Shown here piece by piece: positions 16,289-24,698 of a stretch of 64,000 nt of DNA. The stretch is from Rugosimonospora africana (GTDB lineage: Bacteria; Actinomycetota; Actinomycetes; Mycobacteriales; Micromonosporaceae): positions 1 through 64,000 of the forward strand of contig NZ_BONZ01000076.1 of the NCBI RefSeq assembly GCF_016862975.1, given 5' to 3'. Every line of letters starts with the position of its first letter. Within the stretch, counting starts at the first letter, position 1. A program made the translations under genes and the position numbers. The notes under the pieces are model-generated. The model made no database searches. It was given only the letters and a program-made list of their open reading frames with translations, and was not told where the DNA came from.

Positions 16289-16961
16289 CGTCGGTGTCGG
16301 TCGGGCTCATCCGCTCGCGGCGCATCGAGGAGCGCCAGTACGCCGCGGCGCACACCGTGACGATGAGCCCGGCCCCGGCCGGCGCGAGGGTGAACACGCC
16401 GAGGCGACCCTGGCTGATCACGGCCGCCCCGACTCCGGCCCAGGTCGCCGCGGACGGGGTGGCGCCGATGAGCGTACCCAGCAGGTAGTGCCGGGTACGC
16501 ACGCCGGTGCTCCCGTACAGGTAGCTGACCAGCCCGAACGGCGCGATCGGTACCAGCCGGACCACCACCACGGCGAGCAGTCCGCGGCGGGACAGCCAGG
16601 TGTCGAACCGCGCCGCCCGGCCACGCAGCCGGCCGGCCACCGCGCCGCGAGCCAGCCACCGCGCCGACGCGAACGCGAGACCCGCGGCGAGCAGCCCGGC
16701 GGCCAGCGCGTACGCGAACCCGGCCAGGGCACCGAACAGGGCGCCGCAAGCCACCGAAACGGCGGTACGCGGAACCAGGGCCAGCAGCAGCCCGACCGCC
16801 AGTGCGAGGACCGGGGCCGGCCCGAGCCGCGCGGCGGAGTCGGCCAGCCGTTGCAGCGGCAGAGCGTAGGCGGTCACCGCCATGGCGGCGACCACCACGC
16901 CGAGCAGGACCACCCGCGACCAGGGTGACCTGCGAAGCCGCGAAGCGCTCGGCAGGCTCAC
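16272..16961 (-). CDS. TVP38/TMEM64-family (VTT/SNARE-associated domain) membrane protein
   Basis: 229 residues with about five to six hydrophobic segments. The family core is visible: [36 protein letters not shown], then the [37 protein letters not shown] block. This is a DedA-related lipid-scramblase-like fold, but bacterial substrates are unknown. Its 3' end overlaps leuS by 17 bp on the opposite strand. It begins 4 bp into the end of gatD (16958-16961), so murT, gatD and this gene may share an mRNA. Confidence 0.85.
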
Positions 16962-17680
16962 GCCGCCCGGACGGCGGCCAACCGCTCGCCGCGCAGCCGT
17001 TCCGGCCAGGCGTCGTCCAGCGGAGGCAGGTTGTCGATCCCGGTTGCCCAGCGCAGCAGCAGGTCGGCCAGCCCGGGGTTACGGGACAGGGCCGGACCGT
17101 GCGAATACGTCCCCACGATGCTGCCGTTCCAGGCCCCCTCGGTGGCGCCGTCGTTGCCGATGCCGACCGAGACCTTGGCCAGCGGCCGGGCGCTCGGCCC
17201 GAGGTGGGTGCGCCCGCCGTGGTTCTCGAAGCCGCTCAGCATGGGCAGGCCCAGCTCGGGGTCGACCGTGCCGGCCAGCTCGCCGACCGCCCGCGACGGT
17301 CCCCGGTCCGAGGTCAGGTCGAGCAGGCCGAGGCCGGCGCATGGCTGGCCCTTGGCGAAGAACGACTGGCCGAGCAGCTGGTACCCGGCGCAGATGGCGA
17401 GCACCACCGCGCGCCGGTCGACAGCGCGGCGCAGCCCGCCGTCGGCGATCAGCCGCTGCGCGGCCAGCGACTGGGGGCCGTCCTCACCGCCGCCCAGCAG
17501 GTAGATGTCGGCGTCCACAGGTACCGGCTGGTCCGAGCGCACCTCGAAGCACTCCACCGGCAGCCCGCGCATGGCCGCCCGCCGGGACAGGATCAGCAGG
17601 TTGCCCCGGTCACCGTAGGTGGACAGCAGGTCGGGGTAGACCCAGACGATGCGCAGAGCGCTCATTCCGTTAATTGACAC
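16958..17680 (-). CDS. gatD: Lipid II isoglutaminyl synthase, glutaminase subunit GatD
   Basis: 240 residues, class I glutamine amidotransferase fold. Nucleophile Cys97 lies in LAICAGYQLLGQ and His194 in TYSHGPALSRN; the N-terminus VYPDLLSTYGDRGNLLILSRRA is typical of GatD. It supplies ammonia to MurT for amidating the alpha-carboxyl of D-Glu in the lipid II stem. GTG 17680 has GGAG 7 nt upstream and overlaps the murT stop by 11 bp; ATG 17665 is the alternative. Coupling with murT matches the fixed MurT-GatD complex. Confidence 0.93.
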   Translation of the reverse strand: MSINGMSALRIVWVYPDLLSTYGDRGNLLILSRRAAMRGLPVECFEVRSDQPVPVDADIYLLGGGEDGPQSLAAQRLIADGGLRRAVDRRAVVLAICAGYQLLGQSFFAKGQPCAGLGLLDLTSDRGPSRAVGELAGTVDPELGLPMLSGFENHGGRTHLGPSARPLAKVSVGIGNDGATEGAWNGSIVGTYSHGPALSRNPGLADLLLRWATGIDNLPPLDDAWPERLRGERLAAVRAA

Positions 17681-19514
17681 GGTCCAGCTCCGCTCGGATG
17701 TCCTGGAAGGCGGTGTAGTTGGCGATGACCTCGAGCCGGCCGGGCGGCGTCGCGGCGAGCGCCTGGGCGAACGACCGGACGTGCGTGAACGGCACTCCGT
17801 TGACCTCCAGCCGCACGGCCAGGTCGAAGGCCCGGTCGCCGCTGATCAGCACCGGCCGGCCGGCCAGCGGCGAGAAGTCCACGTCGAACAGCCAGGAGGT
17901 GTCCAGGCCGTCGGGGTCCCGAGCGTTGATCGACAGCAGGGTCGGCGCGTGGTCGGCCATGTCGAACGCCTCCAGCCAGCCGGCCGGGTTCTTGGCCAGC
18001 AGCAACCGGATCGCCTTGCCGTCGCGCTCCACCTGGGCGTAGCGGCCGGCCACGGAGGCGACCTCGGCGAGCCGGGGAGCCGCCTCGGCCGGCGGTACCC
18101 CGAATTCGGCGGCGATGGCCAGCGCGGTGGCCGCGTTCGCCCGGTTGACCCGACCCGGCAGCTGGAGCGTGATCCGGTGCCGGACACCCCACGGGTCGAC
18201 GACGGCGTCGCTGTCGACCGTCCACTGCGGAGTGGGGCGGCGCAGCGCGCAGTTGGTGCAGTGCCAGTCGGCGTCGGGGTTGCCGCCGCCGGAGTCGACC
18301 AGGGGCTCGGCGACCGCGTCGACCGACGGCTCGCCGCCCTGGCTCGCGGGCATCGTCTCGGAGCGGAGCGGGCCGGGCGCGGTCTGTGCGGTGGGCGAGG
18401 AGGCTGCCGCGCCGGCCGGGGCGACGACGGCCGGTATCGGGCCGCCCGGCGCCATGCTCGGCGCGGTCGGCCCGGACTGGGTCATCGTGGGCGCCGTGCT
18501 GCCGGTCTCGACCGTGGGCGGCGCGGTCGCGCTGGTCCGGATGCCGCTGGCCGCCGCGGCCTCGGCCGCGACCGAGGCGGCACCGGCGGTGTTCGCCTGG
18601 ACCGCGTTGGGGGGAGCGGTGCTGGGCGGAGCGGCGTTGGGGGGAGCGGCGCTGGTGTGGATCGTCTCGGGCGGCGCGAAGGCGGCCCCGGCCGGGCCGG
18701 GCATCCCAGGCCCCGCGGCGCTGGGCATCCCGGGGACCGCGCCGGGCATCCCTGGGCCGGCAGCGCCCGGTATCGGGCCCGCCAGGCCGCCGGGTGGGCC
18801 GTCGTGCGGGATGTTGCCGGAGGCGATCATGCTGCCCGGGGCCTGGCCCGACGCGGCGAGCGCGGAGGCCGCCGCCGGGGGAGTCTCGCCGGCGCGGGCG
18901 ATGGCGCCGCCGCACTCCGGGCAGACCCAGGAGTCGTCGTGCCAGCGCTGCCCGGCGGCGACCCAGGTGACCCGGTCGGAACCGCCGGTCGCCCAGACCA
19001 CCATCGGATCGTCCGCGTTCGCCACCAGGTGGACCGGCTGGCCGCGAAGGGTCTCCTGCCAGAGCTGGGCCATCATCGCCACCTCCTTCGCCCGGTCAAG
19101 CTGGTCGCGGCTCAGGTTGAGCAGCGCGATCACCTTCGGGTGGGTGGCCGCCAGCACCTGCGGCAGGTAGTGCTCATCGGTCTCGAGCACCGCATACGGC
19201 GTGTCCCCGGCCTTGGCCAGGGCCGACGTGTGCCCGGTGGGCATGTTGGCGCCGTAGGAGTTGGTGGCCACCGGGCCGAGGACGCCGAGGGCGGCCGTGG
19301 CCAGCCGGGTGGTGGTGGTCTTCCCGTTGGTACCGGAGATGAGTGCGATCTGCCGGCCGTTGGAGAGATGGGCCAGCAGGTCGGGGTCGATCATCAGACC
19401 GAGTCGTCCGCCGATGACCGAGCCGTCCCCCCGCCCAGTGGCGCGCGAAAGCGCCGCCGCGCCCTTGGATACGGAGGTGGCGAGCTTGGCTCGGAGGGGT
19501 TTCCGCGTCGTCAC
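17670..19514 (-). CDS. murT: Lipid II isoglutaminyl synthase, Mur-ligase subunit MurT, with large insertion
   Basis: 614 residues from GTG 19514. The ATP-binding motif is [14 protein letters not shown] (about residues 60-70); a Mur-ligase central domain and a C-terminal DUF1727 domain (SWLFDVDFSPLAGRPVLISGDRAFDLAVRLEVNG) follow. The zinc ribbon has CPEC at 198-201 and CTNC at 419-422, separated by about 217 residues, most of them a Pro/Ala/Gly/Ser-rich insertion; without it the protein would be about 407 residues, the usual size. It activates D-Glu of lipid II for amidation with GatD. A TACGCT box 7 nt upstream supports the start. It is transcribed divergently from the dcw cluster. Confidence 0.93.
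   Translation of the reverse strand: MTTRKPLRAKLATSVSKGAAALSRATGRGDGSVIGGRLGLMIDPDLLAHLSNGRQIALISGTNGKTTTTRLATAALGVLGPVATNSYGANMPTGHTSALAKAGDTPYAVLETDEHYLPQVLAATHPKVIALLNLSRDQLDRAKEVAMMAQLWQETLRGQPVHLVANADDPMVVWATGGSDRVTWVAAGQRWHDDSWVCPECGGAIARAGETPPAAASALAASGQAPGSMIASGNIPHDGPPGGLAGPIPGAAGPGMPGAVPGMPSAAGPGMPGPAGAAFAPPETIHTSAAPPNAAPPSTAPPNAVQANTAGAASVAAEAAAASGIRTSATAPPTVETGSTAPTMTQSGPTAPSMAPGGPIPAVVAPAGAAASSPTAQTAPGPLRSETMPASQGGEPSVDAVAEPLVDSGGGNPDADWHCTNCALRRPTPQWTVDSDAVVDPWGVRHRITLQLPGRVNRANAATALAIAAEFGVPPAEAAPRLAEVASVAGRYAQVERDGKAIRLLLAKNPAGWLEAFDMADHAPTLLSINARDPDGLDTSWLFDVDFSPLAGRPVLISGDRAFDLAVRLEVNGVPFTHVRSFAQALAATPPGRLEVIANYTAFQDIRAELDRVN
18273..18893 (-). repeat. Low-complexity Pro/Ala/Gly insertion inside murT
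   Basis: Codes for about 207 residues with degenerate PGMPG-, APPN- and TAP-type repeats and no predicted fold. The frame stays open and codon GC bias is as in the flanks. At DNA level GGGGGAGCGG-like and GGCATCCC-like blocks recur, which suggests growth by slippage. Confidence 0.8.
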
Positions 19515-19521
19515 GCGGGCA

Positions 19522-19527
19522 AGCGTA
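19522..19527 (-). promoter_or_regulatory. -10 box TACGCT of a probable leaderless promoter for murT
   Basis: On the minus strand TACGCT ends 7 nt before GTG 19514. No Shine-Dalgarno is present. Confidence 0.5.
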
Positions 19528-22355: not shown

Positions 22356-24698
22356 GTGCCGTCCCGCCGCAGTGATCCACCCCGCCGCCAATCGACCGGC
22401 CGGGCATCGGCGGACCCCACGGTCCTGCCGCTGCACGGCCGGTCGGACGCCGATCAGCAGCAGCGCGGCCGGTCGGCCGATCAGCAGCAGCGCGGCCGGT
22501 CGGCCGGTGGCCAGGCCACCGGCCGGGGCGGGATCTCCGACGCCCGCCGGTACTCGCCGCGTGGCCGGACCGTCCGCGAGGGGGTCGGTCGCGACCCGTT
22601 CCGGCCGGCTCTCGAGCTGCTGCGCAATGAGCAGACCGACGACCGGCGGGGCCGTTCGGCGCCGGGAAAGCGCTCGGGTGCGGGCGGCCGTACCGGCGCG
22701 GCCCGGCAGCAGGTCGGAGGCCGGCAGGGCAGTGGCACGGTCCGGCAGGGCAGTGGCACGGTCCGGCAGGGCAGTGGCACGGTCCGGCAGGGAAGCGGGG
22801 GCCGGCAGGGTGGCGGCGGCCGGCAGGGAGCGGCCCGGCAGGGAGCGGGGCGGCCGGGCGAGGCGATGCCGCGCCGGGCCACGGCCAAGGGCACGGCGAC
22901 TCGTCGCCGGCCGGTACGCAAGCCGAAGCGGCAGCCGCGGCTGGCGGAACCGGCCCGGCGGCTGCGCGCGGGTACCGCGGTCGTGCTGGTGCTGTTCTCG
23001 ATCATCGCGGGCCGGCTGGTCATGCTCCAGCTGGTGGACGCGCGCGGGTACGCGCTGAAGGGGTTGCACGACAGGCTGGTCACCCAGCCGCTGTTCGCCC
23101 AGCGCGGGGCGATCTACGACCGGAACCATCAGGTGTTGGCGCAAGCCGTGGAGGCGAAGTACGTGTTCGCCGACCCGTCGCAGATCAACGCCAAGGCCGT
23201 CGCGTCGACCGCGGACGCGTTGCGCGCGCTGCTCGGCGTACCGACGTCGGAGCTGGTTCCGAAGCTCTCCCGCAAGACCCGGGCGGACGGCAGCAAGGAC
23301 GAGTTCGAGTACCTGGCCCGCGGGGTGCCCATCTCGACCGCCAACGCGGTGATGGCGCTCAACCTGCCCGGGATCGGCGTCGGCCACGACGAGCGCAACG
23401 AGGTGCCCGGTCACGACCTGGCCGCCAACCTGGTCGGGTTCGCCAGCAACAACGGCGCGACCGGGGACAGCCTGACCGGCCGGGTGGGGCTGGAGGAGGG
23501 CTACAACGACCTGCTCTCCGGTACCGACGGCTCGCACACGTTCGAGGTGGGGCAGGGCGACCTGAGCGCGCCCATCCCCGGCGGGTACGACGAGACGAAG
23601 GCCGCGCACCCGGGCAGCTCACTGGAGCTGACCATCGACCGGGATCTCCAGTACGAGTTCCAGCAGGTGCTCACGAAGCAGATGCAGGGGTACCACGCCG
23701 ACTTCGGTTCGGCGGTGGCGATCGACATCCACACCGGCGAGGTGCTCGCGCAGGCCAGCTACCCGAGCTACGACGCGAACAAGCCCGGCGAGTACACCTC
23801 GGACCAGATGATTGACGCGAACACCCAGATCTCGCTCGACCCGGGCTCGATCCACAAGGCGATCACGCTGGGCGCGGCGTTGCAGTCCGGGGCGATCCAG
23901 CCGGACACCACGGTCACCCTGCCCGGTAGGTCGATCAACAAGGGCGGCACGAACTACACGGACACCACCCCGCTGGACAGAGGCACGAAGATCACCCTCC
24001 CAGGCATCCTGGCGTACTCGTCGAACGTCGGGGCGATCGAGGTCGCGGACAAGATGACCCCGCAAACGCTGTACAACTACCAGCTCAAGTTCGGCCTGGG
24101 TAAGTCGACGAAGGAGGGGATCCCGGGCGAGTCGGCGGGCCTGGTCCAGCCGCCGTCGAACTGGAGCGGCTCCAGCTACGGTTCGATCCCGATCGGCGAC
24201 GGTGTTTCGACCACTCCGCTGCAGATGGCCGCGGTGTACGCGACAATTGCCAATAACGGGGTATACATCCAGCCACACCTCATCAAGGCGACGATATCGC
24301 CCGATGGTACGAGTCATCCGGCCGCGGCGCCGCAGACCCGTCGGGTGCTGTCCCCGCAGGTCGCCGCGGTGCTACGTCATGATCTGGAGGCGGTGGTGAC
24401 CGCGAAGGGTGCGACCGGGCACAGGGCGGCGATCCCGCAGTACCGGGTGGCCGGCAAGACGGGTACCGGTCTGCTCGTGCGCAACGGCTCGTATGCACCC
24501 GGCGACGTGGCGTCGTTCATCGGCATGGCGCCGGCCGACGCGCCACGCTACGTGATCGCGGTGTTCGCGCACAGTCCCGGCGGTGAGGGCGGCGACGTGT
24601 CCGCGCCCGCGTTCCAGCAGATGATGTCGTTCACGCTGCAGCATTACGGGGTGGCGCCGACCGGTACCGCGGTGCCGACGTTCACGCTGACCCAATGA
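22356..24698 (+). CDS. ftsI: Septal peptidoglycan transpeptidase FtsI (PBP3-type) with long N-terminal extension
   Basis: 780 residues, about 200 more than usual FtsI. Residues 1-203 are basic, low-complexity and probably cytoplasmic, with tandem repeats ADQQQRGRS (x2) and RQGSGTV (x3). The membrane helix is about 206-226, then the PBP dimerisation domain (FAQRGAIYDRNHQVLAQ). The transpeptidase domain carries the SxxK motif SIHK (Ser498, Lys501), SSN (555-557) and KTG (701-703). It crosslinks septal peptidoglycan with FtsW. GTG 22356 lies 3 bp after the ftsL stop. Confidence 0.95.
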   Translation: MPSRRSDPPRRQSTGRASADPTVLPLHGRSDADQQQRGRSADQQQRGRSAGGQATGRGGISDARRYSPRGRTVREGVGRDPFRPALELLRNEQTDDRRGRSAPGKRSGAGGRTGAARQQVGGRQGSGTVRQGSGTVRQGSGTVRQGSGGRQGGGGRQGAARQGAGRPGEAMPRRATAKGTATRRRPVRKPKRQPRLAEPARRLRAGTAVVLVLFSIIAGRLVMLQLVDARGYALKGLHDRLVTQPLFAQRGAIYDRNHQVLAQAVEAKYVFADPSQINAKAVASTADALRALLGVPTSELVPKLSRKTRADGSKDEFEYLARGVPISTANAVMALNLPGIGVGHDERNEVPGHDLAANLVGFASNNGATGDSLTGRVGLEEGYNDLLSGTDGSHTFEVGQGDLSAPIPGGYDETKAAHPGSSLELTIDRDLQYEFQQVLTKQMQGYHADFGSAVAIDIHTGEVLAQASYPSYDANKPGEYTSDQMIDANTQISLDPGSIHKAITLGAALQSGAIQPDTTVTLPGRSINKGGTNYTDTTPLDRGTKITLPGILAYSSNVGAIEVADKMTPQTLYNYQLKFGLGKSTKEGIPGESAGLVQPPSNWSGSSYGSIPIGDGVSTTPLQMAAVYATIANNGVYIQPHLIKATISPDGTSHPAAAPQTRRVLSPQVAAVLRHDLEAVVTAKGATGHRAAIPQYRVAGKTGTGLLVRNGSYAPGDVASFIGMAPADAPRYVIAVFAHSPGGEGGDVSAPAFQQMMSFTLQHYGVAPTGTAVPTFTLTQ
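22452..22505 (+). repeat. 27-bp perfect tandem duplication in ftsI
   Basis: Two identical 27-bp units (22452-22478, 22479-22505), in frame, coding for the ADQQQRGRS repeat. Confidence 0.9.
22722..22784 (+). repeat. 21-bp perfect triplication in ftsI
   Basis: Three identical 21-bp units in frame (22722-22742, 22743-22763, 22764-22784) coding for RQGSGTV, followed by degenerate RQG-rich copies to about 22845. Confidence 0.9.

Follow-up and report, generated by a model that had tools for sequence, protein, structure and literature searches.

The MurT protein encoded in the window, by which we mean the whole 64,000-nucleotide stretch of Rugosimonospora africana DNA analyzed here, has 217 residues between the two cysteine pairs of its zinc ribbon, a gap that is 12 residues long in most of its relatives. 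No relative carrying the same insert was found in the genomes searched, and the open-access literature searched yielded no description of such an insert in MurT. The reading that we favor, and consider probable, is that this is a working MurT in which a tolerated site bears one extreme, disordered loop that is probably near-neutral.

The murT gene and the coding character of the insert

The features of the murT region to which we refer are the following.

16958..17680, minus strand: gatD, encoding the glutaminase partner; its start overlaps the murT stop
17670..19514, minus strand: murT, encoding lipid II isoglutaminyl synthase subunit MurT; GTG start at 19514, 614 amino acids plus stop
18249..18260, minus strand: second zinc knuckle, CTNC, residues 419-422
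18273..18893, minus strand: low-complexity insert, residues 208-414, predicted to be disordered
18586..18655, minus strand: imperfect tandem array in the insert, 15/30-nt unit (APPNA-like repeat)
18692..18756, minus strand: imperfect tandem array in the insert, 21/24-nt unit (PGMPG repeat)
18912..18923, minus strand: first zinc knuckle, CPEC, residues 198-201
19522..19527, minus strand: TACGCT, a -10-like hexamer 7 nt ahead of the murT start codon

The identity of the protein is supported by several lines of evidence. Pfam finds the MurT_C domain at 64.9 bits (cut-off 25) and the Mur_ligase_M domain at 46.3 bits (cut-off 24), and NCBIfam likewise ranks two MurT models first, with scores of 138 and 132 bits against a cut-off of 800. 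The insert was rejected as the cause of these low NCBIfam scores, because five short-spacer relatives score alike on the same models (134-151 bits); the cut-off therefore excludes these actinomycete MurT proteins generally. The adjoining gatD product matches GATase_3 of Pfam at 114 bits, and its top NCBIfam matches are GatD models, under their cut-offs. Sequence and fold comparisons alike point to the MurT chains of S. aureus, S. pneumoniae and S. pyogenes as the closest solved structures; VIA-align gave Z scores of 26.3-30.2 against six MurT entries, with 339-359 residues aligned at an rmsd of 4.0-7.9, and all ten of the best Foldseek rows were MurT. In the alignment with S. aureus MurT, K65 (of GTNGKT) falls on the P-loop lysine, E111 on E108 and D538 on D349. 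The account in PMC6113224 assigns catalytic roles to the P-loop Lys and the Glu, and the Asp is proposed to complete the triad of GatD. On the other side of murT, Pfam identifies MraZ, a MraW methylase, a transpeptidase, Mur ligases, an FtsW-type protein and a family 28 glycosyltransferase, and this is the usual division and cell-wall (dcw-type) cluster. Judged by its sequence, the window MurT probably amidates lipid II together with GatD. The search of the genome gave a single MurT, and no second copy was seen.

In 50 of 77 distinct upstream regions, which come from related rows and are not independent, the murT start has an in-frame ATG or GTG with a TANNNT hexamer 6-8 nt ahead of it; shuffling gave a mean of 0.2 and a maximum of 2 such regions in 200 rounds. 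The position of the hexamer suggests a leaderless murT transcript. Open frames antisense to murT were rejected as meaningful, since the related locus L002 has them too and they are usual in GC-rich DNA.

In the translation, 217 residues separate CPEC (residues 198-201) from CTNC (residues 419-422), as the preliminary description had stated. It had also described the intervening segment as low-complexity, and indeed Pro, Ala, Gly, Ser and Thr make up 75% of residues 208-414, compared with 41% of the remaining MurT; Lys and Arg account for 1% and aromatic residues for 0.5%. The repeats named there are present as well, PGMPG twice and APPNA twice. The frame is intact, as claimed, with no stop over the insert; yet five of the six frames of the tract lack stops, and because stop-free frames are common in DNA this rich in GC (about 0.81-0.83), the lack of stops counts for little by itself. 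Codon-position composition is more informative. GC content over residues 198-422 is 0.72, 0.76 and 0.94 at the three codon positions, and third-position GC in the MurT core is 0.91 and 0.94; the insert thus behaves as translated sequence in the murT frame.

The internal repeats give only a modest signal of tandem duplication. Six repeated 5-mers and three repeated 6-mers occur in the insert, where 500 amino-acid shuffles reach maxima of 5 and 2; the 18 repeated 4-mers equal the shuffle maximum, and the 46 repeated 3-mers fall below the maximum of 48. At the DNA level the tandem units are 15, 21, 24 and 30 bases long, every length a multiple of three. The total tandem-repeat score was matched by 16 of 500 codon shuffles, and a single tandem score of 68 was reached by 33 of 500, the best observed score being 76. 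An imperfect 28-nt direct repeat (75% identity) is found at the insert borders, at 18269-18296 and 18890-18917, 621 nucleotides apart. We set it aside as a mark of recombination, because it was chosen after the fact and was equaled in 4 of 200 codon shuffles.

Spacer length among MurT relatives

To be read at the level of residues, a MurT had to lie in one of the fetched loci; the other genomes of the family were judged by whether the match came in one piece. Among 134 loci at the spacer measurement, four (L028-L031) had no MurT match, and in four of the other 130 (L027, L122, L125 and L133) a cysteine position was unaligned and the spacer not measurable. The remaining 126 loci contain 97 distinct cores, two of which are pieces of a single MurT (genome G358). 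The spacer is 12 residues long in 69 of these 97 rows, which bears out the earlier statement that the cysteine pairs normally lie close together. Other short spacers are of 11 residues (two rows, both of them the G358 pieces), 13 (four), 15 (four), 16 (two) and 18 (two); longer ones are of 23 (two), 27 (five), 29 (one), 33 (four) and 53 residues (one), and the spacer of 217 occurs in the window alone. The same spacing in all homologues, which had been named as the result that would speak against an unusual insert, is thus not what the rows contain. Because 217 is four times the next longest value, the window MurT stands as an outlier and does not simply end a continuous series of lengths.

The cysteine tetrad is complete (CCCC) in 77 of the 97 rows, CCCG in 13, CSCC in four and CSST in one, with the two G358 pieces making up the rest; the window MurT keeps all four cysteines. 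Incomplete tetrads were observed in several genera of the family (L039, L051-L053, L113-L115 and others, and L004, L005, L007 and L010).

MurT was matched in 246 of 250 genomes of the same family, four genomes giving no match, and a match in two pieces within one gene was seen only in the window genome and in G009. The MurT of G009 (L020) has an insert of 85 residues, 66% of them Pro, Ala, Gly, Ser or Thr, which lies in another loop, just before the ribbon; this Ala/Pro-rich growth is independent of the window insert. One of the 246 matches, in G096, is partial, with an open frame of 186 amino acids. In G191 two full murT copies with equal scores lie on contig C3 (13616-14833 and 59558-60775), about 45 kb apart and in opposite orientation, the result of a duplication or of an assembly effect.

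A search across the class gave a recognizable MurT in 164 of 296 genomes; since the other 132 had no match at E 1e-20, this survey covers recognizable relatives only. Six genomes gave two matches. Besides the window genome these were G358, in which MurT is split over two contigs; G451, G501 and G533, which are small genomes with a distant MurT (spacer 12 in two, not measurable in the third); and G448, of family f23. The G448 spacer is the one of 53 residues; it contains PAAPGSPASPAAPGGG at the same hairpin tip where relatives have 33 residues, and it is an independent, smaller growth. Loop lengths in f23 are 12, 13, 16, 27, 33 and 53, the last reached in G448 by an added Ala/Pro/Gly run, and five related rows (G448 and four relatives) have in common a YVPPGGH stretch at the hairpin tip. 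In the lengthened rows of both families the added residues come after the stretch that follows the first cysteine pair and ahead of the W that precedes the second pair. Because loop length has varied in two families, we regard the hairpin tip as a place of frequent length change.

Core, predicted fold and origin of the insert

The MurT core was placed in a tree of 94 rows, built without the loop columns and after removal of identical cores, of rows lacking a measured spacer and of those with more than 60 gaps. The window MurT pairs with the MurT of L002, which has a spacer of 16, with support of 99/90. The two join rows with spacers of 18 and 29 in a wider clade of weak support (91/57), and from this weak grouping the lineage may have begun with an already lengthened loop. 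The preliminary description was right that the insert is large, and its size can now be refined to a net gain of about 201 residues relative to this sister MurT. The end branch of the window MurT, 0.20, is above the median of all tree rows (0.061) and was not flagged as long; its neighbors have branches of 0.13, 0.34 and 0.43. Of 184 columns invariant in 11 relatives, 183 are kept. A MurT from a record named Actinopolymorpha pittospori (L003:3001-4245) groups weakly with the neighbors of the window MurT, inside the Micromonosporaceae-like part of the tree, which may reflect a transfer or a doubtful record.

An AlphaFold model of the window MurT was built from an alignment of 12 MurT sequences (mean pLDDT 60.9, pTM 0.54). 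The blocks of the insert between residues 221 and 410 have pLDDT values of 28-39, and beyond a short helix at 214-221 the insert has no secondary structure in the model. We infer that it is disordered, taking low pLDDT as a sign and not as proof. The blocks with the zinc knuckles, in contrast, reach 67-89, and strands at 204-207 and 417-419 lie beside the knuckles, flanking the low-confidence region from 216 to 412. The L002 control, modeled with the same alignment rows (mean 73.8, pTM 0.70), places the corresponding strands at 204-207 and 216-218, and the local confidence there is similar. The ribbon strands are thus predicted to be kept as in a short-spacer protein, and zinc binding is putative. 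The predicted strands and the four retained cysteines are in line with the earlier proposal of a ribbon that still folds, with the insert looped out.

No clear source of the insert was found elsewhere in the genome. Residues 208-414 had no Pfam or NCBIfam match up to E = 1, on which ground an intein or domain insertion was rejected. No second protein copy was found among the 150 of 552 first-look candidates that were scored. At the DNA level, with 40 of 711 first-look candidates scored, 39 other short matches up to E 1 were listed; the best among those listed is 72 nt long at 78% identity (E 1.2e-8) and lies in an open frame, presumably of a TetR-like protein, at its Ala-rich end. A mobile or duplicated piece was rejected as the source, given the lack of a second protein copy and the shortness of the DNA matches, the longest listed being that of 72 nt. 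Nor does the genome have a habit of such inserts: 17 similar segments (2 internal) occur in 376 kb of it and 14 (3 internal) in 400 kb from 20 relatives, counted in open frames picked by GC alone, some of them probably spurious. Since this is no excess over the relatives, a general tendency to expansion does not explain the insert. When 13 genes of the murT-dcw region were compared with those of up to 20 relatives, gatD being incomplete in most of the stretches, an internal gain of more than 40 residues was found in MurT only. The amino-terminal tail of ftsI is repeat-rich and variable and gains up to about 38 residues; in the ftsI-like gene at 22356-24698 (plus strand) this tail (about 22400-22850) carries QGSGTVR-like repeats, and its length varies among relatives.

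Alternative explanations and comparison with known MurT proteins

Our favored explanation is that in one lineage the hairpin tip of the zinc ribbon would have grown, by in-frame local duplication and drift, into a Pro/Ala/Gly/Ser/Thr loop of about 200 residues at a site occupied by 12 to 53 residues in other MurT proteins. At the base of the hairpin the two knuckles would still come together and bind a single zinc, the loop would project into the cytoplasm as a flexible strand, and MurT with GatD would still amidate the D-isoglutamate of lipid II, the loop having at most a weak effect. The solved MurT structures, as described in the available text of PMC6113224 and PMC6085368, have a ribbon that protrudes, is variable and is present in only a subset of bacteria. 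A consideration that counts against a neutral loop comes from S. pneumoniae, for which PMC6085368 describes a part of the ribbon as touching GatD and reports that a four-cysteine mutant had 23% activity in vitro and was not viable; disturbance of the ribbon can therefore be costly, and a huge ribbon loop might be selected against unless it were helpful.

Such help could come from a loop that works as a flexible tether or docking arm, keeping MurT-GatD near cell-wall proteins or the polar growth machinery, a proposal that we consider rather unlikely. Zinc fingers of the ribbon class are noted in PMC6113224 as protein-interaction platforms. MurT and GatD of M. smegmatis are described in PMC10484409 as co-localizing at the poles and septum and as present in the membrane-domain proteome, although nothing ties that localization to the loop in the window. 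The YVPPGGH stretch common to the five f23 rows implies that some growths at the hairpin tip are kept for a time, and 35 of the 217 spacer residues are Ser or Thr. On the other hand, an insert of this size at the ribbon tip occurs in one of the 246 family genomes with MurT, it belongs to no Pfam or NCBIfam family, and it offers few charged or aromatic residues for contacts; the interaction or tethering role suggested in the preliminary description is accordingly unsupported. A more specific version, to which we give still less credence, is that this nearly uncharged, Ser/Thr-rich, lineage-specific arm tethers amidation to the site of cell-wall assembly or is a substrate of a Ser/Thr kinase. 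If true, the arm would give amidation a placement or regulation that is not known from other MurT proteins.

The remaining alternatives concern the integrity of the gene or its product. The draft genome consists of 219 contigs, the insert is GC-rich and an imperfect direct repeat stands at both of its borders, all of which one might expect if some 620 bases from elsewhere had been joined into murT by an assembly or sequencing artefact. The insert is nevertheless in frame, with third-position GC as in the core, and the scored candidates contain no second protein copy; misassembly of the tract is unlikely, and we hold the artefact as a whole to be quite improbable. About as improbable, or slightly more so, is a two-piece MurT, in which the insert is removed or avoided, either because the halves are made separately or because the loop is cut. 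By inference only, a long disordered loop would be an easy target for proteases, and a two-piece enzyme might still come together on the ribbon. The insert, however, matches no intein and no other family. Finally, a large insert within a conserved domain could mark a MurT that is decaying and has lost its constraint. The nearly complete set of invariant columns, the cysteine tetrad, a core branch not flagged as long, the single MurT found in the genome and the retention of gatD and the neighboring dcw-type genes all speak against this, and we think decay highly unlikely.

We therefore return to a working enzyme with a near-neutral loop as the probable explanation. The sequence itself, its rarity among the genomes searched, the variability of the site and the integrity of the core are established, and on top of these the disorder, activity, mode of growth and near-neutrality of the loop are probable and zinc binding is putative. 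The function of MurT-GatD is essential in some Gram-positive bacteria, according to the available text of PMC6085368. If the enzyme works, the window holds a natural experiment indicating that the halves of a MurT ribbon can come together with more than 200 residues between them, and it points to a permissive position in this cell-wall enzyme, which would be useful for tags or probes. About lipid II amidation as such it would teach us little that is new, unless the loop binds something.

The nearest relative found, the MurT of the MAG Actinobacteria AC_7 (L002), is 84% identical to the window MurT and has the same tetrad, an adjoining gatD and a divergent mraZ-like gene upstream (gatD and mraZ being named by eye), but its spacer is 16 residues long and not 217. 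The solved MurT proteins of S. aureus (6gs2/6h5e/7q8e), S. pneumoniae (6fqb) and S. pyogenes (9sq9/9sqj) have the same Mur ligase middle and C-terminal domains, the GTNGKT loop, the catalytic Glu and Asp positions, a Cys4 ribbon after the middle-domain strands and an adjacent gatD. The spacer of 217 residues in the window compares with 18 residues in S. pneumoniae, calculated from the cysteine positions in PMC6085368, and with 18 in S. aureus according to the alignment. A further comparison is with the MurT of G448, which has an Ala/Pro/Gly-rich growth at the same hairpin tip and keeps its tetrad, but whose spacer reaches 53 residues, including the YVPPGGH stretch.
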